From an uncultured Clostridia bacterium (GTDB lineage Bacteria > Bacillota > Clostridia > Oscillospirales > Acutalibacteraceae), in contig CALWIH010000013.1 in assembly GCA_944380675.1 (NCBI GenBank), positions 1 through 35,441 on the forward strand: a DNA stretch of 35,441 nt, read 5' to 3'. This document shows positions 1,135 to 9,918 of the stretch, in pieces. Numbering within the stretch: the stretch's first letter is position 1; each line of letters begins with the position of its first letter. The notes beneath the pieces were generated by a model. It made no database searches. It saw only the letters and a program-made list of their open reading frames with translations, and had not been told where the DNA came from. The position numbers were made by a program, and so were the translations under genes.

Positions 1135-2418
1135 TCAGAGCGAGTAAATATCGCGCGCAAAGTCAAACAGCTTGAGCAGGCGCATGAAGGTCAGACGCGC
1201 GCGGACGTAGGGCGAGAGGCGCGCCGCCGGGGCGAGCATGGCGTCGGGCAGGCCGATCTCCGCGAGGCTCTTGACGGCGCCGGCGCGGGTGAGCAGGTCT
1301 GTGAGCTCCTGCGGCGAGGGGATCTCGTCCACGGCGCGCAGAATGTCCGGGAGAGCGCGCCGGATGGCGTCCGGCGTCACACCGGCCAGCGGGTTCGGAT
1401 CGTTTTCATCCAGAATCTCGGCGAGCATCGCCTTGTCGGGAAAGCTCTTTTCGAGGAGCGCGGTCTCGATGTCCATCCCCTCGCGGAGCGTGAACGCACC
1501 CTTTCGGATCTCCTCCGCCGCGCGGTGGTACACGCCGGAGGCGAGCACGAGACCGACGGACACCTTCTCGCCGTGGTAGTAGTCGACGCGGCCGTTGATG
1601 GCCTCCATCTCCCAGAGGTGGGACATATGGTGCTCCGCGCCGGAGGCCGGGCGGGAGTTGCCGACCATCTGCATCGCGAGGCCGGAGAGCAGCAGCGCGT
1701 ACATGAGCTGCTCGCACGCCTCCGCGCCGCCCGCGCGGATGGCCTCGGGCTGTGCGCACACAATGCGCAGCGCGTCGTATTCAAGCGCGCACACACGATC
1801 GCAGAGGTATTCTCCCGTGACGGCGCGGGCGATTTTCCAATCGGCGAGCGCCGTGTATTTGCCGAGCAGGTCGGAGAAGCCGGAGGCGTTCAGCCGCTGC
1901 GGCGCGCGGGAGAAAACGTCGGTGTCGGCGACGACGAGCGACGGCGCGACGGCGGGGAAGGTCTTCTTGCAGCCGTGCCACGTCATCGCCGCCACCGTGG
2001 AGACGAAGCCGTCGACGCTCGCCGCCGTCGGCACGGAGACGAAGGGCAGGCCGCGCTTGTGCGCGATATAGCGCGTGATGTCGTGAACCGTGCCGGAGCC
2101 GACGGCGAGCAGCACATCCGGCGCGGGGCAGGCGGCGAGCCCCTCCTCCGCCATCGTGACGCCGTGCTCGTTCGCGTGCAGGTTCTCCGGATTCAGCACA
2201 ATAAGGCCGCTCTCCGGCAGGAGTCCGCGCACGGCGCGTCCCGCGGCCTCCAGCGTGTTTTCGTCGCAGAGAACGACGGGCTGCCGGTAGCCGTATTGCT
2301 CCAAAAGCGCGGGAATGCGCCTCAGCGCGCCCGCTTCAAGGATGATTTCCTTCACGGAAATGGCGTGCTCCCTGCCGCACGCGCACGGCTTCGCAAATTC
2401 GCTCAGGTCTAATTTCAT
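1135..2418 (-). CDS. egsA: sn-glycerol-1-phosphate dehydrogenase (EgsA/AraM family)
   Basis: The 427-residue product belongs to the AraM/EgsA family, which reduces dihydroxyacetone phosphate to sn-glycerol-1-phosphate, the archaeal-type glycerol phosphate stereoisomer. The fold is that of metal-dependent alcohol/polyol dehydrogenases. Visible motifs are GSGTVHDITRY (nucleotide binding), VPTAASVDGF, DLLGKYTALADW, and the histidine clusters EHHMSHLWE and YYHGEKVSVG that usually hold the metal. A GTG nine bases further upstream would add MCV, but the ATG at 2418 is preferred because GAGGAG sits eight bases before it. The gene follows the terminator of the pheA operon and probably has its own promoter. 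Bacterial members are known in Bacillus subtilis (AraM). What this organism makes with the product is not evident here. Family certain, exact substrate likely. Confidence 0.9.
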   Translation of the reverse strand: MKLDLSEFAKPCACGREHAISVKEIILEAGALRRIPALLEQYGYRQPVVLCDENTLEAAGRAVRGLLPESGLIVLNPENLHANEHGVTMAEEGLAACPAPDVLLAVGSGTVHDITRYIAHKRGLPFVSVPTAASVDGFVSTVAAMTWHGCKKTFPAVAPSLVVADTDVFSRAPQRLNASGFSDLLGKYTALADWKIARAVTGEYLCDRVCALEYDALRIVCAQPEAIRAGGAEACEQLMYALLLSGLAMQMVGNSRPASGAEHHMSHLWEMEAINGRVDYYHGEKVSVGLVLASGVYHRAAEEIRKGAFTLREGMDIETALLEKSFPDKAMLAEILDENDPNPLAGVTPDAIRRALPDILRAVDEIPSPQELTDLLTRAGAVKSLAEIGLPDAMLAPAARLSPYVRARLTFMRLLKLFDFARDIYSL

Positions 2419-2457
2419 CACACACACTCCTCGTCTCAGAGATTACGAAAGCTTACG

Positions 2458-2500: not shown

Positions 2501-2529
2501 ATTATATCACATTACTCGCGCTCTGTATA
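2501..2529 (-). promoter_or_regulatory. Candidate extended -10 promoter for egsA
   Basis: On the minus strand a TATAAT (2501-2506) is preceded by TG one base upstream (TGATATAAT, an extended -10). A weak -35, TATACA, sits at 2524-2529 with a 17-base spacer and overlaps the end of pheA. The start site would fall within the terminator stem. Plausible but unproven. Confidence 0.5.
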
Positions 2530-3621
2530 GTTCCCCAGGAAAGAAAAGCGCGGCAATTCCGCGGAAAGAGAGGCCAGAAGCGCGAGCGTCTTCTCGTCGC
2601 GGACAGAGCCGGTGAAGTCGAGGTAGAAGTCGTACTCGAACCGTCTCCCGAGAATCGGGCGGCTTTCGATTTTCGTGAGGTTCAGCCCCGCCTGCGCGAA
2701 GCGCGAGAGCACGCCGTGCAGGGAGCCCGTCTGGTGCGGCAGCGAGAAGCAGAGGCTGATCTTGTTCGCGTCCTCGGGCAGGTACAGCGTGCGGCTGATG
2801 ACGATGAACCGCGTGCAGTTGTTTTCGGTATTCTGGACGCCGCGCTCGAGGATGGTCAGCCCGGCGGATTCCGCCGCCTCCTCGGAGCAGATGGCGGCCG
2901 CGTCCGGCTCCTTCGCGGCCTTGAACGCAGCCTCGGCGGTCGTCTCGCACGGGACGGGCGCGAGCGAGAGCGCCGCGATCCTCTGCGAGCACTGGGCGAG
3001 CGCCTGCGGATGCGAGTAGACGCGCACGGGCTTCGCGCCGGGAGCGGCGGCCAGGCAGTGGTGTACGCCGAGCGTCACCGCGCCCACAATATAATAGCGG
3101 AAGCGCAGGATGAGGTCGTACACCTCGCCGACGGAGCCCGCCGACGAGTTCTCGACCGGCATCACGCCGAACTCCGCGTCCCCGGCCTCGACGGCGCGGA
3201 AAATCTCCGCGAACGAGTTATAGGTGACGGGCGTGCTTTCCGGGAACAGAGTCCGCGCCGCCGTATGCGAGAACGAGCCCGGCCTGCCGAAGGTGGCGAT
3301 GCGCTCCGTCTTTTCGGGCGGCAGCGCGGCGGAGGCGACAAGGGCGCGCAGCTCCGCGCCGGAATCGAGCAGGCTGTGCTGCAGCGCGCGGCTGACCTCC
3401 ATCAGCGTGGAGTAGAGCACGCGGGCCGCGCCGCCGTATTCCCCGGCGCTCGCCTCCACCCGGTCGAGGATAGCCTTCTCGCGCTCCGCGTTGAGCACCG
3501 GGAGACCGGCCTCCTTCTTGACAGCCGCGACCTCCTTCGCACAGTCCATCCGCGCCTGAAACAGCGGCAGCAGCTGGGAGTCGATCGCGTCGATTTTCCT
3601 TCTGATTTCCTCAAGCGTCAT
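2512..3621 (-). CDS. pheA: Bifunctional chorismate mutase / prephenate dehydratase
   Basis: The 369-residue enzyme makes phenylpyruvate from chorismate in two steps of phenylalanine synthesis. Residues ~1-85 are an AroQ-type chorismate mutase (LEEIRRKIDAIDSQLLPLF, with the later KKEAGLPVLNAEREKAIL). Residues ~105-280 are the dehydratase, with TFGRPGSFSH, MPVENSSAG and the catalytic-region NCTRFIVIS. Residues ~290-365 are an ACT domain with the ESRPI motif that binds phenylalanine in feedback-inhibited enzymes, so product inhibition is likely. The start overlaps the end of aroC by 11 bases, implying translational coupling. It is the last gene of the aromatic operon and is followed by a terminator. 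Confidence 0.96.
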   Translation of the reverse strand: MTLEEIRRKIDAIDSQLLPLFQARMDCAKEVAAVKKEAGLPVLNAEREKAILDRVEASAGEYGGAARVLYSTLMEVSRALQHSLLDSGAELRALVASAALPPEKTERIATFGRPGSFSHTAARTLFPESTPVTYNSFAEIFRAVEAGDAEFGVMPVENSSAGSVGEVYDLILRFRYYIVGAVTLGVHHCLAAAPGAKPVRVYSHPQALAQCSQRIAALSLAPVPCETTAEAAFKAAKEPDAAAICSEEAAESAGLTILERGVQNTENNCTRFIVISRTLYLPEDANKISLCFSLPHQTGSLHGVLSRFAQAGLNLTKIESRPILGRRFEYDFYLDFTGSVRDEKTLALLASLSAELPRFSFLGNYTERE

Positions 3622-4735
3622 GTTCGTTTCCCTCCATCGTCAGCGCGTTGTTCAGCAGAAGCAGCTCGAGCGCGGCCACGGCGGCGGCGCTCTCCGCGAC
3701 GGGCGCGGCGCGCGGAACAATGCACGGGTCGTGCCGTCCGTGCACCTCGAGTTCCGTCACGCGCCGCCCGGCGAGGTCGACGCTCTGCTGCGGCTGCGAG
3801 ATGGAGGGAGTGGGCTTGACGGCGATGCGGAAGACGAGCGGCATCCCGGACGTGATTCCGCCGAGAATTCCGCCCGCGTGATTCGAGACGGTGCGGATTT
3901 CGCCGCTCTCCGCGACGGTGAACGGGTCGTTGTTTTCGCTGCCGCGCAGCGACGCCGCGCCGAAGCCCTCGCCGAACTCCACGCCCTTGACGGCGGGAAT
4001 CCCGAAGAGGATCGAGGAGAAAAGCGACTCCACGCCGCCGAACAGCGGCCCGCCGAGCCCGGCGGGCAGTCCCGTCACGGCGACCTCGACGACGCCGCCC
4101 ACGCTGTCGCGCGCCATCCGCGCGTCCTCGATGACGGCGCGCATCTGCGCTTCGACGCCGTCGCCGATCGTCGGGAAGTACGTCTCCGAGAGGCGGTGCA
4201 GCAGCTCGTCCGGAATGTCGGGGGAGGGCAGCGGCAGATCCCGCGCCGGCCCGACGGACGCCACATGGCTTCCGATCCGGATGCTGCGCCGCTCGAGAAT
4301 CTGGCGGCAGACGGCCCCGGCGGCGCACAGGCAGGACGTCAGCCTGCCGGAGAAGTGGCCGCCGCCGCGCACATCGTTGCAGCCGCGGTACTTGACGTAC
4401 GCCGCGTAATCGGAGTGGCCGGGGCGCGGGGCCTGCATCACGTTCGCGTAGTCGCCTGAGCGCGTGTTCGTGTTGCGGATAACGATGCACAGCGGCGCGC
4501 CCGTCGTGCGCCCGCCGAGCAGTCCGCTGAGGAACTCCGGCTCGTCGGCCTCTTTCCGCGGCGTCGAGCTCTTGTCTCGCCCCGGCGCGCGCCGGGACAT
4601 CTGCAGACGAAGCGCGTCCATGTCGACGGCTTCCCCGGCGGGCAGTCCGTCTATCACCACGCCGACGGCGGGGCCGTGGCTCTCCCCGAAGATGGATATT
4701 CTGAGGTTAGTCCCCCAGACCGATGCTGCTGCCAT
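3611..4735 (-). CDS. aroC: Chorismate synthase
   Basis: This enzyme converts 5-enolpyruvylshikimate-3-phosphate to chorismate using reduced FMN. The protein is ~374 residues, normal for the family. The N-terminal WGTNLRISIFGESHGPAVG, the central GRLTSCLCAAGA segment and the C-terminal GRHDPCIVPRA are the three classical signatures. The ATG at 4735 is chosen because GGGAGG lies eight bases before it; a TTG six bases upstream would add MH. The gene begins inside the last 29 bases of aroA and its end overlaps pheA, so aroA, aroC and pheA look translationally coupled. Confidence 0.96.
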   Translation of the reverse strand: MAAASVWGTNLRISIFGESHGPAVGVVIDGLPAGEAVDMDALRLQMSRRAPGRDKSSTPRKEADEPEFLSGLLGGRTTGAPLCIVIRNTNTRSGDYANVMQAPRPGHSDYAAYVKYRGCNDVRGGGHFSGRLTSCLCAAGAVCRQILERRSIRIGSHVASVGPARDLPLPSPDIPDELLHRLSETYFPTIGDGVEAQMRAVIEDARMARDSVGGVVEVAVTGLPAGLGGPLFGGVESLFSSILFGIPAVKGVEFGEGFGAASLRGSENNDPFTVAESGEIRTVSNHAGGILGGITSGMPLVFRIAVKPTPSISQPQQSVDLAGRRVTELEVHGRHDPCIVPRAAPVAESAAAVAALELLLLNNALTMEGNEHDA

Positions 4736-6008
4736 GTGCAACCCCTCCCAATGCCGTATAGTCGTGGAAAAAGCCGGGATAGCTCTTGCGGATGCTCCCG
4801 GCGTCCGTGACGGTGCACGGCCCTGCCGCGCGCAGGGCGGCCACCGCGAGCGACATCACGACGCGGTGATCGTTCGCTCCCTCGGCCTCGCCGCCGCGCA
4901 GGGACGGCGTCCCCCGGAGGACAAGTCCGTCCGCCGTCTCGCGGACGTCCGCGCCGAACGCCGAGAGCCCGCGCGCCATCGCGGCGAGCCGGTCGCTCTC
5001 CTTGAGGCGCAGCCGCTCCGCGTGAAAAATCACGGTATCCCCCTCCGCGAGGGAGAACGCCGCCGCGAGGATCGGCACGAGGTCGGGGATCTGCGAGGCG
5101 TCCACGCCGATTCCGTGCCACGCGTCCGCCGTGCAGCGCAGGCCGTCCGCCTCCCAGGTGAGGCGCGCCCCGCCCTGCGCGAGCAGCTCCGCGATCGCCT
5201 TGTCGCCCTGCAGGGAGTCGCGGCGCACGCCCGTGACGAGCACGTCCCCGCCGAGCGCGCCCGCCGCGAGGAAGAACGCGGCCTGCGACCAGTCGCCCTC
5301 CACCGTGTACCGGCGGGGCGAGTACCGCTGGTTTCCCGGAATCCGCCAGCCGCCCTCTGTGCGCGTGACGGCGACGCCGAAGTCCGCCATGGCCTGCACC
5401 GTCATTTCCACATAGGCGGCGCTCTCAAGCGGCGTTGTGAGCACAATCTCGCTGTCTCCGGAAAGAAGCGGCAGGGCGAACAGAAGGCCGGTGATGAACT
5501 GCGAGCTGACGTTCCCGGGAAGCGCGAAGACGCCCGGCGTGAGCCGCCCTTCGATCGAGAACGGCAGCCCGCCCTCCGTGCGGCAGCGGACGCCGTGCTG
5601 CGGCAGGAGCTCCGCGTAAAGGCCGATCGGCCTGCCCGGCAGGCGTCCGCGCCCCGTGAAGACGGCGGGGACGCCGAGCGCGGCGGCAATCGGAATCAGG
5701 AAGCGCAGCGTCGAGCCGCTTTCGCAGCAGTCGAGCGTGACGGCGCCCTCCGGCCTTACGCCGCGCCGGAGCGTGCAGACGCCGTTTTCCGAAACCGTCT
5801 CCGCGCCGAGCGCGCGCACGGCCCCAAGCGTCGCGCGGATGTCGTCCGAGAGGTCGAGGGGGGAGAGGACGCTCGCCTCCTCCCGCGGCGCGAAGATTGC
5901 CGCGAGGGCCGCGCAGAGGATGGCGCGGTGCGCCGCGCTCTTCGACGGCGGGGCGGCCACCGTCCCGCGCAGACGGCCCGGCTCGAGCGTCACGCTGCAC
6001 GCGCTCAT
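4707..6008 (-). CDS. aroA: 3-phosphoshikimate 1-carboxyvinyltransferase (EPSP synthase)
   Basis: The ~433-residue product transfers the enolpyruvyl group of phosphoenolpyruvate to shikimate-3-phosphate. Key family motifs are present: PPSKSAAHRAIL near the N-terminus, ESGSTLRFLIPIAAALG, GRGRLPGRPIGLYAELL, RLRLKESDRLAAMARGL and DHRVVMSLAVAAL. The ATG at 6008 is chosen over a start 30 bases upstream because it overlaps the aroB stop codon as ATGA and has GGAGGA six bases before it. The protein is the usual length with no insertion. The first phosphoenolpyruvate-binding motif reads ESGSTLRF rather than the enterobacterial GNAGTAMRP form, so it is not of the E. coli sequence type. Confidence 0.96.
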   Translation of the reverse strand: MSACSVTLEPGRLRGTVAAPPSKSAAHRAILCAALAAIFAPREEASVLSPLDLSDDIRATLGAVRALGAETVSENGVCTLRRGVRPEGAVTLDCCESGSTLRFLIPIAAALGVPAVFTGRGRLPGRPIGLYAELLPQHGVRCRTEGGLPFSIEGRLTPGVFALPGNVSSQFITGLLFALPLLSGDSEIVLTTPLESAAYVEMTVQAMADFGVAVTRTEGGWRIPGNQRYSPRRYTVEGDWSQAAFFLAAGALGGDVLVTGVRRDSLQGDKAIAELLAQGGARLTWEADGLRCTADAWHGIGVDASQIPDLVPILAAAFSLAEGDTVIFHAERLRLKESDRLAAMARGLSAFGADVRETADGLVLRGTPSLRGGEAEGANDHRVVMSLAVAALRAAGPCTVTDAGSIRKSYPGFFHDYTALGGVAHGSSIGLGD

Positions 6009-7078
6009 CGGGCTTCCTCCGCGAGCGCTTCGCGGCACAGCGCGGCGAATTCGGCGCGCGGCAGGCGGTGGACGAAGCTCTCGCCGACGGCGCGCAGCAG
6101 CACAATCCGCAGGTCGCCGCCGAGGCCCTTCTTGTCAAGCGCCGTCGCGCGGAGCACCTCGTCGAGCGAGGCGTCGTCGGAAACGGGGAGATGGTATTTC
6201 CGCAGGACTTCGGCGATCGCGTCCGCCGTGCCCGCCTCCGTCAATCCCATGTGTTCGCCGAGGCGGGCGATGAGCACCATGCCGATCCCGACGGCCGCGC
6301 CGTGCGTCAGCCCCGTGTAGCCGTGCGCCTTCTCGAGCGCGTGGCCGAGCGTGTGGCCGAAGTTGAGGACGAGGCGTTCGCCCGTATCGAACTCGTCGTG
6401 CTCGACGATGACGCGCTTGCAGTCGACGCAGTCATAGAGGATCGATTCCATCAGCGGCGCGAGGTCGTCCGCGCCGCGCAGCGTCTCAAAGAGGGCGCGG
6501 CTGCGGATGCAGCCGTACTTGATGACCTCGCCCATGCCGTCCGCAAAGAAGAGCGGCGGCAGCGTCTCGAGCGTGTCGGGGTCGATGAGGACGAGGGCGG
6601 GCTGATGGAACGCGCCCGCCAGATTCTTCCCCTGCGGCAGGTCGACGGCCGTCTTCCCGCCGACGGAGGAGTCCACCTGCGCGAGCAGCGAGGTCGGTAC
6701 CTGCACAAATCGGACGCCGCGCAGATAGCACGCCGCGGCGAAGCCCGCCATGTCGCCGGTCACGCCGCCGCCGAGGGCGACGAGAAAATCGCTGCGCGTG
6801 AGGCCGCGCTCCGCGAGGAAGCCGAGCATCTGCGCGACAGTCGAGAGCTGCTTGCTCGCCTCCCCGGCGGGGAAGACGAAGAAATCCGGCTGAAAGCCCT
6901 CCCCGCGCAGCGAGGCGAGAGCGCGCTCCCCGTAGAGCGGGAAGACGTTGCTGTCGCTGATGACGGCAGCCTTTGCGCCGGCCGGGAAAAGCGCGGCGCA
7001 GCGCGCGCCGAGCGAATCGAGACAGCCGCGTTCGATGAAAATCTCATATGGTTTTGAGGTTTTGACGTTGAGCTGCAT
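6005..7078 (-). CDS. aroB: 3-dehydroquinate synthase
   Basis: This is the second enzyme of the shikimate pathway. It cyclises 3-deoxy-D-arabino-heptulosonate 7-phosphate to 3-dehydroquinate and needs NAD and a divalent metal. The 357-residue protein has the NAD-binding segment VALGGGVTGDMAGFAA, the substrate-binding VPTSLLAQVDSSVGGKTAVDL and the metal-site segments DGMGEVIKYG and LNFGHTLGHALE. The start ATG follows GAGAGG by eight bases. It is separated from tyrA upstream by 36 bases and overlaps aroA downstream by four. Confidence 0.97.
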   Translation of the reverse strand: MQLNVKTSKPYEIFIERGCLDSLGARCAALFPAGAKAAVISDSNVFPLYGERALASLRGEGFQPDFFVFPAGEASKQLSTVAQMLGFLAERGLTRSDFLVALGGGVTGDMAGFAAACYLRGVRFVQVPTSLLAQVDSSVGGKTAVDLPQGKNLAGAFHQPALVLIDPDTLETLPPLFFADGMGEVIKYGCIRSRALFETLRGADDLAPLMESILYDCVDCKRVIVEHDEFDTGERLVLNFGHTLGHALEKAHGYTGLTHGAAVGIGMVLIARLGEHMGLTEAGTADAIAEVLRKYHLPVSDDASLDEVLRATALDKKGLGGDLRIVLLRAVGESFVHRLPRAEFAALCREALAEEAR

Positions 7079-7114: not shown

Positions 7115-7963
7115 TCATTCTCCGAGAGACTCCTTGACAAGCCGCCCCTGCCGCAGGAGCTCGGAGAGACGCGCCGCGTCCCCGTCCCGGACGGCGTCGC
7201 GCACCGCGGAGAGGTTGGCGATGAGCGTGTCGAGCTCGTCGGTCAGCGGCCCCGAGTTGCTCAGAAAGAGCTCCGTCCAGAGCGTCTCGTTGATGTTCGC
7301 CACGCGCGAGACGTCGCGGTAGCTGCCCGCCGAAAAGCCCTTGTGGCCGGGACACTGCGGGCTGAGCACATAGGCGCACGCGAGGGCGTGCGGCACCTGG
7401 CTCGTGAAGGCGATCATGCGGTCGTGCTCCTCCGGCGTCGTCACGACGCAGCGGCCGAAGCCGAGCGCCTCCGCCGTGCGCCTGAGCAGGGCGACGTCCT
7501 CGTCGGACGCGCCGCACGGCGTGATGAGATAGCTCGCGCCGCGGAACAGCGACGCCTCGCTCGCCGCGAAGCCGACCTTCTCGCGACCCGCCATCGGGTG
7601 GCTGCCCGCGAAGCGGAATCCGAATTCCCTCGCGAGGGCGGAAAGCTCCGCGCAGACCTGCGTCTTGATGCCGCACACGTCCGTCACAAGGCAGGAGCGC
7701 GGGATCTGCGCCCCGTGCTCGCGCGCGAAATCGACGGCGGCCTTCGGATAGAGCGCGAGGATGAGCAGGTCGAGGCGCCGGAGATCGTCGTCACTGCCAA
7801 CGCGATCGATTGCCCCGCAGGCGAGCGCCGCCTCTGTGACCTCGGGATTGCTGTCAAAGCCAATCACCTCGCAGTTCGTGTACTCGCGGAAGGCCTTCGC
7901 CATCGAGCCGCCGATGAGGCCGAGGCCGACAATCCCGACGCGAAGGGAGAGCTCCTCCTCCAT
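7115..7963 (-). CDS. tyrA: Prephenate dehydrogenase
   Basis: The 282-residue enzyme oxidatively decarboxylates prephenate to 4-hydroxyphenylpyruvate on the tyrosine branch. It begins with a Rossmann motif, RVGIVGLGLIGGSMAKAF. It contains FRFAGSHPMAGREKVGF, where the histidine and glycine-rich stretch are conserved in TyrA, and EEHDRMIAFTSQVPHALA. It is a stand-alone dehydrogenase without a fused mutase or a C-terminal ACT domain, so feedback control may rest elsewhere. Its GGAGGG ribosome site lies inside the last codons of aroF, only three bases separating the genes. NAD versus NADP use cannot be read safely. Confidence 0.94.
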   Translation of the reverse strand: MEEELSLRVGIVGLGLIGGSMAKAFREYTNCEVIGFDSNPEVTEAALACGAIDRVGSDDDLRRLDLLILALYPKAAVDFAREHGAQIPRSCLVTDVCGIKTQVCAELSALAREFGFRFAGSHPMAGREKVGFAASEASLFRGASYLITPCGASDEDVALLRRTAEALGFGRCVVTTPEEHDRMIAFTSQVPHALACAYVLSPQCPGHKGFSAGSYRDVSRVANINETLWTELFLSNSGPLTDELDTLIANLSAVRDAVRDGDAARLSELLRQGRLVKESLGE

Positions 7964-7966
7964 GAC

Positions 7967-8983
7967 TCAGCCCTCCGCGTGCAGCAGCGAGGCTGCCTGG
8001 AAGACGCGCCGGGCCACACGGTCGAACTGGTCGGGCGTCAGCGACTGCGCGCCGTCGGAGAGGGCCTTCGCCGGGTTGTTGTGCACCTCGATGATGAGGC
8101 CGTCCGCCCCCGCCGCGACGGCGGCCATCGCGAGCGGCTCGACGAGCCAGGCGATGCCGGAGGCGTGGCTCGGGTCGACGACGACCGGCAGGTGCGACAG
8201 GCGCTTCAAAATCGGCACGGCGGAGATGTCGAGCGTGTTGCGCGTGTACGTCTCGTAGGTGCGGATGCCGCGCTCGCAGAGAATGACCTGCTCGTTGCCG
8301 CCCGCCATGATGTACTCAGCGCTCATGAGCAGCTCCTCGATCGTGCTCGAGAGGCCGCGCTTGAGGAGGATGGGCTTTCTGATCTTGCCGAGCTCCTTGA
8401 GCAGCTCGAAGTTCTGCATATTCCGCGCGCCGACCTGGATGATGTCGACGTCCTCGAACAGCGGCAGATGCGCCGCGCTCATGATCTCGGTGACGATCGG
8501 CAGGCCCGTCTTCTTTCTCGCCTCGCGGAGCAGCTCGATGCCCTCCGCCTTCAGACCCTGGAACGCGTAGGGGGAGGTGCGGGGCTTGAACGCGCCGCCG
8601 CGCAGGAACTGCGCGCCCGCCGCCTTGACGCGGTCCGCGACCTCGCAGATCTGCTCCTCCGTCTCGACGGAGCACGGCCCGGCGATGATGGAGAGAGAGC
8701 CGCCGCCGATCCTCTGTCCGCCCGGCAGCTCGATGACGGTGTCGTCGGGATGGAACTTGCGGTTCGCCTTCTTGTAAGGCTCCTGGACGCGCTTGACGCT
8801 CTCCACGAAGTCCTGCGCGGCGATGTAATCGATGTCGATGACCGACGTGTCGCCGATGAGGCCGAGCACAGTGCTCTGCGTCCCGACCCAGGTGTTGACC
8901 TTGACGTTGTAGTCGTGGGTCAGGCCGTCGGTGAAATGCTTGAGCTGTTCCACGGTGCAGTTTGGCTTTAATACGATGATCAT
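7967..8983 (-). CDS. aroF: 3-deoxy-7-phosphoheptulonate (DAHP) synthase, class I-beta
   Basis: This is the committing enzyme of aromatic synthesis, joining phosphoenolpyruvate and erythrose 4-phosphate. The ~338-residue product starts with a ferredoxin-like regulatory domain (residues 1-~70, MIIVLKPNCTVEQLKHFTDG), as in the Thermotoga-type I-beta enzymes. The TIM barrel follows: SIIAGPCSVETEEQI, LRGGAFKPRTSPYAFQG and VDPSHASGI. The ATG at 8983 is chosen because AGGAGG lies eight bases upstream; an upstream TTG in the same frame falls against the attenuator. It is the first structural gene of the aroF-tyrA-aroB-aroA-aroC-pheA operon. Its expression is probably governed by the leader-peptide attenuator just upstream. 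The N-terminal domain suggests allosteric inhibition by an aromatic amino acid. Confidence 0.95.
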   Translation of the reverse strand: MIIVLKPNCTVEQLKHFTDGLTHDYNVKVNTWVGTQSTVLGLIGDTSVIDIDYIAAQDFVESVKRVQEPYKKANRKFHPDDTVIELPGGQRIGGGSLSIIAGPCSVETEEQICEVADRVKAAGAQFLRGGAFKPRTSPYAFQGLKAEGIELLREARKKTGLPIVTEIMSAAHLPLFEDVDIIQVGARNMQNFELLKELGKIRKPILLKRGLSSTIEELLMSAEYIMAGGNEQVILCERGIRTYETYTRNTLDISAVPILKRLSHLPVVVDPSHASGIAWLVEPLAMAAVAAGADGLIIEVHNNPAKALSDGAQSLTPDQFDRVARRVFQAASLLHAEG

Positions 8984-9029
8984 GGGAAAGTCCTCCTTTT
9001 TTTCTGTGCAGTCTCCGGCGCAGGGCAAC

Positions 9030-9062
9030 AAAAAACGGCGGAGCCGTTTCCAGCTCCGCCGT
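9030..9062 (-). terminator. Attenuator terminator in the aroF leader
   Basis: On the minus strand a perfect 10-bp stem (ACGGCGGAGC with GCTCCGCCGT) with an 8-base loop is followed by six T. It lies 56 bases after the leader-peptide stop and 46 bases before the aroF start. A terminator between promoter and first structural gene is the hallmark of attenuation. Confidence 0.87.
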
Positions 9063-9099
9063 CGATGCGTCGTCAGATCCCGGCCCGCCCGATATCCGG

Positions 9100-9128
9100 G
9101 ACGGGGCAGGGGCTTGGTTTACAAGCCC
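9100..9128 (-). promoter_or_regulatory. Leader RNA structures around the leader-peptide stop codon
   Basis: A 7-bp perfect stem with a 5-base loop (9110-9128) encloses the TAA stop of the leader peptide. Just downstream, the minus-strand segment CCCCGTC (9100-9106) can pair, with one bulged base, with GACGGCGG in the left arm of the terminator. It is therefore a candidate antiterminator arm. The pairing was worked out by eye and is not a calculated fold. Confidence 0.45.
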
Positions 9129-9247
9129 GCTCGTCTGCCGCGCGGCATGGAGTTTCCACAGCTTTCAGCGCACGCACAAAAATCCCGCGCCATAAAATAG
9201 CGGGGATAGCCAAAGCCGGTAAATCGTGCGGTGAAAATGGCGTTCAT
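9119..9247 (-). CDS. Phe/Tyr-rich leader peptide of the aro operon
   Basis: A 42-codon reading frame starts at an ATG with CAGGAG seven bases upstream, and lies ~50 bases after the predicted transcription start. It encodes MNAIFTARFTGFGYPRYFMA and continues to a TAA stop. Phe occupies residues 5, 9, 12, 18 and 23, and Tyr residues 14 and 17, so seven of the first 23 residues are the end products of the operon. Tryptophan is absent. An intrinsic terminator follows before aroF. By analogy with the pheA and trp leader peptides of enteric bacteria, a ribosome slowing at Phe/Tyr codons when charged tRNA is scarce would prevent the terminator forming. I infer function from composition and position. 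The C-terminal part is Cys/Arg-rich and has no obvious role. Confidence 0.8.
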   Translation of the reverse strand: MNAIFTARFTGFGYPRYFMARDFCACAESCGNSMPRGRRAGL

Positions 9248-9302
9248 GGATAAGCTCCTGTTCCGCGGCTTTTGAGAAAGCCTTGCGTTTGAAATCGTTC
9301 TT

Positions 9303-9331
9303 ATCATACCCTGCTTTTTTCCGTTTGTCAA
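9303..9331 (-). promoter_or_regulatory. Sigma-A promoter of the aroF operon
   Basis: On the minus strand the sequence reads TTGACA (9326-9331), a 17-base spacer, then TATGAT (9303-9308): a perfect -35 and a five-of-six -10. The predicted start is near 9296, giving a leader of ~310 bases before aroF that contains the leader peptide and terminator. Confidence 0.88.
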
Positions 9332-9355
9332 CCGGAAATTTCGCGGATTTCTCAT

Positions 9356-9388
9356 TTTTTGCAGGAAAATATTGATTTCCTGCAAAAA
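9356..9388. repeat. Inverted repeat between aroK and the aroF promoter
   Basis: A perfect 13-bp inverted repeat (TTTTTGCAGGAAA with TTTCCTGCAAAAA) with a 7-base loop lies just after the aroK stop and upstream of the aroF promoter. The T-run precedes the stem and the A-run follows it on both strands, so the U-tract is taken up in pairing. It may mark the end of the aroE-aroK transcript, or be a protein site. Confidence 0.5.
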
Positions 9389-9399
9389 CATCGAAACGG

Positions 9400-9918
9400 T
9401 CAGCCGCCCTCCCCGAGCGCCGCGAGAATGCTCCGCACGACCTCCGCCGGAGCAGCCCCCGCGTCGACGGCAAAATCGGCGGCGCTCCGGTAGAGCGGAA
9501 GACGCTGCCCAAGCAGCTCCTCAATGACGGCGTTCCGGTTCGGCTTCTGCAGCAGCGGACGAGCCGTGTCGTTCGCGAGCCGCCGCTGCAGCTCCGCGAG
9601 CGGGACGTCGAGCAGGACGATGACGCCCGTCCGGCGCAGGAGCTCGGCGTTCTCCCGCCGGACGAGCGTCCCGCCGCCGGACGCTATCACGAGCCCGCTT
9701 TTGCGGGAGAGCGCTTCGCACGCCTCGCGCTCCAGCGCCCGAAAGCGCGCCTCGCCGTCCTCGGCGAAGATCGCCGAGACGCTTTTTCCGACGCTCTTTT
9801 CGATATAGGAATCCATGTCGACGAAGCTTCTGCCGCTTTTTCCTGCAAACAGGGAGCCTACGGTGCTCTTGCCGCAGCCCATGAAGCCGCACAGGACGAT
9901 GTTCCGCTTTCCGCTCAT
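9400..9918 (-). CDS. aroK: Shikimate kinase
   Basis: The 172-residue kinase phosphorylates shikimate at O3 using ATP. The Walker A loop GFMGCGKST is at residues ~11-19, followed by the shikimate-binding DMDSYIE, the glycine triplet ASGGGTLVRRENAELL and the lid arginines near TARPLLQKPN. Length is typical. The ATG at 9918 overlaps the aroE stop as ATGA and has AGGGGGA eight bases before it. An upstream extension of the same frame is rejected because it lies within aroE. It forms a two-gene unit with aroE, separate from the attenuated aroF operon. Confidence 0.95.
   Translation of the reverse strand: MSGKRNIVLCGFMGCGKSTVGSLFAGKSGRSFVDMDSYIEKSVGKSVSAIFAEDGEARFRALEREACEALSRKSGLVIASGGGTLVRRENAELLRRTGVIVLLDVPLAELQRRLANDTARPLLQKPNRNAVIEELLGQRLPLYRSAADFAVDAGAAPAEVVRSILAALGEGG

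Follow-up and report, generated by a model that had tools for sequence, protein, structure and literature searches.

A putative attenuator with a mixed Phe/Tyr leader peptide in front of the aroF operon in Clostridia

INTRODUCTION

How is transcription of the genes for aromatic amino acid synthesis adjusted to the supply of their products in an uncultured Clostridia bacterium of the family Acutalibacteraceae? The window, that is, the whole stretch of 35,441 nucleotides of contig CALWIH010000013.1 (assembly GCA_944380675.1) analysed here, carries an aroF-tyrA-aroB-aroA-aroC-pheA operon, the products of which include both Phe and Tyr. The original prediction, made from the nucleotide sequence, placed a ribosome-stalling attenuator with a mixed Phe/Tyr leader peptide in front of aroF, assigned to it the control of the whole operon, and regarded such a device as notable for Firmicutes. 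In the classical pheA (pheL) and trp leaders of Escherichia coli, the control codons lie in strand 1 of an RNA that can form three alternative pairings (1:2, 2:3 and 3:4). We examined whether the aroF leader of the window and those of its relatives conform to such a layout.

RESULTS

Leader and operon of the window

The following features, numbered as in the window, precede aroF.

9331–9303, minus strand: promoter of the sigma-70/A type (TTGACA at 9331–9326, 17-bp spacer, TATGAT at 9308–9303), from the sequence
9259–9255, minus strand: leader ribosome-binding site AGGAG, from the sequence
9247–9119, minus strand: leader peptide frame of 42 codons (ATG at 9247, stop codon TAA at 9121–9119), from the sequence and comparable frames in relatives
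9235–9179, minus strand: control-codon stretch from Phe5 to Phe23, the proposed first strand (S1) of the switch, with a CGA-TTT dicodon (9226–9221) inside it
9229–9174, minus strand: possible outer stem of GCACGA (9229–9224) with TTGTGC (9179–9174), with weaker support
9208–9183, minus strand: in-frame hairpin over Tyr-Phe codons with one bulged base, followed by U5, from compensatory changes
9152–9133, minus strand: proposed antiterminator segment (S2), CTCCATGCCG.., pairing with the 5' half of the terminator, from duplex energies and a family-level test
9128–9110, minus strand: 7-bp hairpin over the leader stop codon, from the sequence and folding
9062–9030, minus strand: intrinsic terminator with a perfect 10-bp stem (9062–9035) and six U (six T at 9035–9030)

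The leader frame translates as MNAIFTARFTGFGYPRYFMARDFCACAESCGNSMPRGRRAGL, with its seven Phe/Tyr codons at positions 5, 9, 12, 14, 17, 18 and 23, and the ATG of aroF follows the terminator at 8983 on the minus strand. The promoter, the ribosome site, the 42-codon frame with seven Phe/Tyr in its first 23 residues, the stop-codon hairpin and the perfect terminator ahead of aroF, all named in the original prediction, were thus found in the sequence. The hexamers and the spacing of the promoter are identical in the genus-mates L083 and L084; the stop-codon hairpin was not seen as a conserved feature in 24 leaders inspected by eye. The leader RNA folded more stably than shuffled sequences (z −4.1), as did its 3' part (z −4.5). 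In the best fold of the ribosome-free RNA, the S2 region pairs with the ribosome site and start of the leader itself (9264–9133, minus strand), a modelled pairing that could limit leader translation. Rfam families include leaders for Phe, Trp, His, Thr and Leu; none of the known leader-peptide families matched the window at the gathering score or up to E = 10, and no Rfam family of any kind matched it at threshold.

The operon following the terminator consists of six genes.

7967–8983, minus strand: aroF, DAHP synthase, the first controlled gene (NCBIfam NF006421 and TIGR01361 above cut-off)
7115–7963, minus strand: tyrA, prephenate dehydrogenase (clear family matches below curated cut-offs)
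6005–7078, minus strand: aroB, 3-dehydroquinate synthase (TIGR01357 above cut-off)
4707–6038, minus strand: aroA, EPSP synthase, given as the longest frame and overlapping the end of aroB (TIGR01356 above cut-off)
3611–4741, minus strand: aroC, chorismate synthase (TIGR00033 above cut-off)
2512–3621, minus strand: pheA, chorismate mutase-prephenate dehydratase (clear family matches below curated cut-offs)

Directly upstream and in the same direction lie aroE and aroK, the best NCBIfam matches of which are clear and under the curated cut-offs. Beyond pheA, and in the same orientation, lies a glycerol-1-phosphate dehydrogenase-like gene (1135–2427, minus strand; match below cut-off). To see which genes adjoin aroF elsewhere, seven proteins from the aro genes of the window were used as queries at 61 leader-positive named-contig loci, 53 of which had at least 1 kb of sequence after aroF. 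The next gene of the set was tyrA in 33, aroB in 11 and pheA in two of these 53 loci, and in seven none of the set was found. The original proposal of an aromatic operon behind the leader holds, one of these three genes coming next in 46 of the 53. The genome of the window also carries a second DAHP synthase (L002, at G000:C86), 51% identical; the scan found no Phe/Tyr leader adjoining this gene, and a terminator-like hairpin lies about 95 bases before it.

Occurrence of Phe/Tyr-rich frames upstream of aroF

Upstream regions of aroF were collected from two loci of the window's own genome, from the best 80 of at least 594 named-contig loci, and from a search of 200 family genomes, which contributed 29 and 100 (145 places listed, 15 not taken). 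Paralogues of 51–54% identity (L002, L192–L200 and L211), locus L210, which matched only from residue 67, and three loci with less than 250 bases upstream were left out, so that 196 regions were kept, 192 of them distinct. At the level of the class, 138 of the 196 genomes searched had an aroF match. From these, one representative was taken for each of 40 families outside the window's own; some matching families were not taken.

In 149 of the 192 distinct regions, a short frame preceded by a ribosome site had five or more Phe/Tyr among 20 residues, and in 147 it was accompanied by a terminator. When the controls were scored for the frame alone, 62 of 960 dinucleotide-shuffled sequences and 10 of the 192 reverse strands were positive. 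With the threshold raised to eight Phe/Tyr in 20 residues, the counts were 85 of 192 regions, two of 960 shuffles and one of 192 reverse strands. An earlier scan of 169 regions with a threshold of 2 gave 99 positives against five in shuffled and three in reverse sequences. Among all 190 amino acid pairs at six or more in 20 residues, Phe+Tyr was the commonest (136 of 192), followed by Ala+Phe (129). Furthermore, a promoter agreeing with the consensus at 10 or more of 12 bases was found no more than 140 bases upstream in 123 of 144 related leaders, compared with seven of 144 base-shuffled stretches.

Among the 40 family representatives, 23 had a Phe/Tyr frame plus terminator, two had a T-box-like motif (L251 and L255), and 15 had neither by the scan. 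Named carriers include Marasmitruncus massiliensis (L053), Clostridium thailandense (L067) and Emergencia sp. (L076), and many carriers are gut or rumen bacteria according to their contig titles. The closest aroF among the matches listed, from which the nearest records may be absent, belong to Candidatus Heritagella intestinalis and an uncultured Clostridia bacterium (87% identity).

Homologous regions that keep the terminator and lose the frame would speak against the proposed attenuator. The frame was missing by the filter from 43 of the 192 regions, 18 of which have a terminator-like hairpin. Inspection of these 18 by eye recovered a leader missed by the filter in three (L014, L054 and L162) and a T-box-like motif in two (L041, confirmed by Rfam, and L203). 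Among the other 13, the hairpins of L023, L142, L143, L186, L187, L189, L207 and L208 either belong to the upstream gene or its immediate 3' side or precede the promoter. The cases of L072, L103, L178, L190 and L191 are less clear, and there may be a few true counterexamples.

A palindrome, CTTTAAAG, occurs within 150 bases of aroF in 11 of the 45 regions without a frame plus terminator (L011, L012, L016, L023, L028, L103, L154, L187, L206, L207 and L208) and in none of the 147 positive regions. It is located near the promoter and, in several regions, is embedded in CGCTTTAAAGCG or a similar sequence, making it a candidate operator at which some aromatic regulator would act in place of the attenuator.

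A covariance model tuned to the nearest relatives, the misses of which consequently mean little, gave 27 matches in 25 of 150 family genomes. Two matches (L241 and L243) represent leaders in an unusual position, and three (L246, L247 and L249), having no leader frame by the filter, were taken as chance. At L243 (547–1320 and 1453–1587, minus strand), a second, duplicated leader precedes an N-terminal part of AroF fused to shikimate-kinase-like sequence, the second half being identified by eye. At L241 (1486–2699), an epimerase-like gene, also identified by eye, is inserted between leader and aroF.

Conservation of the Phe/Tyr codons

Comparison of 168 distinct leaders, the class-wide sample included, showed that the stretch from the first to the last Phe/Tyr codon consists of 32% Phe, 21% Tyr and 2% Trp, the Phe and Tyr shares being somewhat inflated because the stretch ends in Phe or Tyr by choice. 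Both residues are present in 162 of the 168 leaders, and 141 have at least two of each. In 22 close pairs, 153 of 178 aligned codons for Phe or Tyr still specified one of these two residues, with 14 Phe–Tyr exchanges among them, while 119 of 466 other codons changed residue. Phe–Tyr exchanges accounted for 14 of the 39 residue changes at these codons.

The peptide as such looks unselected because substitutions in the same 22 pairs were not biased towards the third codon position (76, 105 and 114 at positions 1, 2 and 3, respectively) and few internal indels (7 of 37) were multiples of three. Relaxed criteria, which gave 78 pairs, did not sharpen the picture (243, 292 and 286 substitutions; 160 of 630 indels in multiples of three). 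This pattern fits a leader whose product goes unused, and gives no independent proof of translation. The 5–95% range of leader length is 20–49 codons. Close relatives share residues other than Phe and Tyr (RFTGFxYPRYFMAxDFCAC), whereas distant leaders, such as L071 (MNTFAFAAFYFSFYFFYYAL), have little in common beyond the density of Phe and Tyr.

In-frame hairpin and rare arginine codon

The in-frame hairpin is formed by the codons for Tyr-Pro-Arg-Tyr-Phe-Met-Ala-Arg-Asp. In a 16-sequence alignment, changes on both sides were found at eight of its 11 pairs, with 87.4% of cells paired. A covariance model built from this 16-sequence seed gave 44 matches (two of them in L101) from 52 sources, and every one of the 11 pairs had changes on both sides in the resulting alignment, itself biased towards the model; across the whole 17-pair structure of this model-fitted alignment, 77 cells had changed on both sides compared with 25.7 in shuffles. 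Pairing of the possible outer stem (helix 1) varies between sequences, with 72.5%, 70.8% and 60.9% of cells paired in three alignments. When all leader cores were placed in a single MAFFT alignment, RNAalifold detected no structure at default and one short stem at other settings, because hairpin lengths differ. By its resemblance to the pause hairpins of classical attenuators, the in-frame hairpin may play the same role.

At the start of the Phe/Tyr stretch, the Arg or Lys codon that precedes Phe is CGA in 46 of 67 distinct frames. The other 21 include several wrong-frame or early calls whose true leader has CGA-TTT (L004, L105 and L110), the others being distant leaders. In 15 genes of the window, CGA accounts for six of 411 Arg codons and TTT for 37 of 214 Phe codons. 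The 52-sequence set was chosen by CGATTT and therefore cannot itself show that CGA is invariant. The codon may be kept for pairing or for slow decoding.

Predicted alternative pairings of the leader RNA

The segment 9100–9106, originally proposed as the antiterminator, makes five continuous pairs only with the terminator arm (GACGG/CCGTC, by eye), and its sequence CCCCGTC is absent from the genus-mates L083 and L084; this segment was set aside in favour of S2. The 5' part of S2, CTCCATGCCGCG, is letter-identical in L083 and L084, and in L084 the best duplex with the 5' half of the terminator (S3) uses another segment, after the stop codon. In the 52 leaders with a CGA core, S2 paired better with its own terminator 5' arm and loop than with swapped partners (P = 0.0005), and S1:S2 also beat swapped partners (P = 0.007). 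Across the 168 leaders, S2:S3 pairing was native-specific, with a mean residual of −3.7 kcal/mol after partner averages had been removed and none of 5000 permutations as low (z −18), although the leaders are related, so that these tests are not on independent events. For 64 of the 168 leaders, the own terminator ranked in the top 10% of partners. S1:S2 duplexes had −23.6 kcal/mol in native combination and −19.3 and −18.9 kcal/mol with swapped partners, and the S1:S2 and S2:S3 duplexes share at least five bases of S2 in 152 of 168 leaders.

With a ribosome modelled at the last Phe/Tyr codon, the upstream RNA formed at least five pairs with the terminator arm and loop in 152 of the 168 leaders; with the ribosome modelled at the stop codon, at least five such pairs were still formed in 83. 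Folds with a stalled ribosome and swapped terminators had at least five pairs in 265 of 336 cases. A ribosome at the stop codon would overlap S2 in 83% of native and 79% of swapped combinations, giving no separation. In the window itself, a fold with the antiterminator imposed had −44.3 kcal/mol and fell 3.3 kcal/mol short of its strongest competitor, and the S2:S3 duplex ranked an unremarkable 23rd of 51 against swapped terminators. The alternative-pairing model thus fits the leaders as a family and not each leader. The partner of the terminator arm is probably to be placed within the final part of the leader frame, at 9152–9133, a modelled position that is better supported than 9100–9106 and indecisive in the window itself.

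DISCUSSION

The recurrence of the Phe/Tyr-rich frame in relatives, the presence of both residues in nearly all leaders and the native-specific pairing of S2 with S3 support the mixed Phe/Tyr attenuator originally predicted. From these comparisons of sequences, we put the probability that the window leader is a ribosome-mediated transcription attenuator at about 0.88. Mixed Phe and Tyr leader attenuation is supported as the best explanation, in which translation, stalling, pausing and joint sensing of Phe and Tyr are what we infer.

The following course of events is proposed for the window. RNA polymerase would start just downstream of the −10 box (9303) and copy the leader, and a ribosome would follow on the 42-codon frame. 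When charged tRNA-Phe and tRNA-Tyr are ample, the ribosome would reach the stop codon and cover or pass S2, whereupon the terminator would form and stop most transcripts. A shortage of either charged tRNA would make the ribosome halt on one of the seven Phe/Tyr codons (9235–9179), melting the in-frame hairpin and the S1:S2 pairing; S2, once freed, would engage the terminator's 5' half, and the polymerase would continue into aroF-tyrA-aroB-aroA-aroC-pheA. With no ribosome on the leader, S1:S2 would hold S2 and termination would be the default.

The same attenuator may instead respond to the supply of Phe alone, the Tyr codons being passengers. Precedent comes from the aroR leader (Phe-Tyr-Phe) of Corynebacterium glutamicum, which, according to a 2025 review, answers Phe and not Tyr limitation (PMC11802643), and Phe also outnumbers Tyr in the clusters. 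However, most leaders carry at least two codons for each residue, the two are exchanged in over a third of the residue changes at these codons as if they were interchangeable, and the operon makes both amino acids; a response to Phe alone is thus considered unlikely. The residues other than Phe and Tyr that close relatives share could also point to a specific nascent peptide (RFTGF..) that arrests the ribosome on binding a free aromatic compound, with no part played by empty tRNA. This is very improbable, since distant leaders such as L071 are alike in little but their density of Phe and Tyr, and the shared stretch sits on the in-frame hairpin, with its Arg kept as one rare codon, CGA.

It is harder still to credit that the frame is there by accident and that the leader is a ligand-binding RNA (a T-box or riboswitch). 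T-boxes do occur at some Clostridia aroF genes (L041 by Rfam, with T-box-like motifs before L203, L251 and L255), and a sub-threshold match to the Moco riboswitch covers 9131–8977 of the window. Nevertheless, no Rfam family reached threshold there, none of the 11 T-box matches in the window's own genome is at aroF, and the frame recurs in relatives. A T-box (RF00230) at the aroF of the window was rejected, there being no match at the gathering score in the window and none up to E = 10 at 8950–9400. The Moco riboswitch was likewise rejected, its 23.5 bits falling short of the gathering score of 36 and the match lying on GC-rich hairpins not seen by eye in genus-mates. That the frame, ribosome site and promoter are all good is also what would be expected of a gene for a small functional protein, the transcript of which the terminator merely ends; there is little sign of selection on the peptide, its length varies widely, the RNA pairs better with its own terminator than with those of others, and the covariance-model matches in 150 family genomes provided no convincing case of a leader before an unrelated operon, which together make a small protein extremely improbable. 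Mixed Phe/Tyr attenuation is accordingly retained as the preferred reading of the leader.

At E values of 0.001 or lower, the genome of the window contains 11 matches to the T-box (L212–L222), three of them over the gathering score. One over the gathering score precedes tyrS, and matches below it precede pheS, trpS and a TrpB-like gene; the other downstream genes, identified by eye, are ilvB (twice), valS, thrS, hisS, alaS and, ahead of a transport protein, one that resembles a dehydrogenase. Because T-box matches are present in the genome and a leader peptide is present at aroF, the organism appears to use both devices. T-boxes (at tyrS and pheS) and a leader peptide (at the synthesis operon) may read the same tRNAs side by side.

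We advance a broader view tentatively, and on balance would expect it to need revision: leader-peptide attenuation, not the T-box, would be the main and probably ancestral control of entry into the aromatic pathway in the class Clostridia; it would act as a true two-input sensor, Phe and Tyr being interchangeable through one frame; and the conserved in-frame hairpin and the rare CGA before Phe would pace ribosome and polymerase. If the attenuator reading of the leaders is right, a sensor of Phe and Tyr supply that no Rfam family matched here would control the first committed aromatic step across much of Clostridia, providing a counterexample to the practice of looking mainly for T-boxes in this class. 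Many short Phe/Tyr-rich frames would become annotatable, and nature would offer a case in which to test whether two amino acids can be read by a single leader.

The window leader is like the E. coli pheA and trp leaders in its proposed alternative pairings and strand-1 control codons, and differs from them in that those are controlled by a single amino acid each and belong to Proteobacteria. They have been described as being under Phe- and Trp-tRNA control (PMC11802643). Attenuation of aroF linked to tyrosyl-tRNA has been suggested for E. coli and Shewanella (PMC2659441; mentioned in PMC8632094); the suggestion rests on a 1980 study of E. coli, and the passages concerned describe no leader peptide of the window's type. 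In Acholeplasma, uORFC-13-1, a short frame with one or more Phe codons and a possible promoter and terminator directly before aroF, has been proposed to mediate attenuation (PMC8632094). By the description given in that source, it is set apart from the window leader, having 24 representatives, only from Acholeplasma and environmental sequences, and at least one Phe residue.

Among the matches listed from the open-licence literature, there was no report of a Phe/Tyr leader before aroF in Clostridia. The occurrence of such a leader in Firmicutes is less exceptional than originally suggested because leader-peptide attenuators are known from this phylum. Classical leader peptides are reported to take the place of T-boxes at hisS and his operons of Firmicutes and at ilv-leu of Staphylococcus aureus (PMC2965389, PMC9413887, PMC5794164), though these concern other amino acids, other genes and small groups of species. 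A parallel that also lessens this exceptionality is aroR of C. glutamicum, in which a Phe-Tyr-Phe leader peptide precedes DAHP synthase and ribosome stalling raises transcription (PMC4046766, PMC11802643). The aroR leader shares with that of the window its place before an aroF operon and its Phe/Tyr codons; however, it belongs to a different phylum, has three control codons in place of a long mixed cluster, and is reported to respond to Phe and not to Tyr. As judged from its sequence, the mechanism would be the classical one, and the aroF leader of Clostridia is probably a widespread addition to the attenuators already known.
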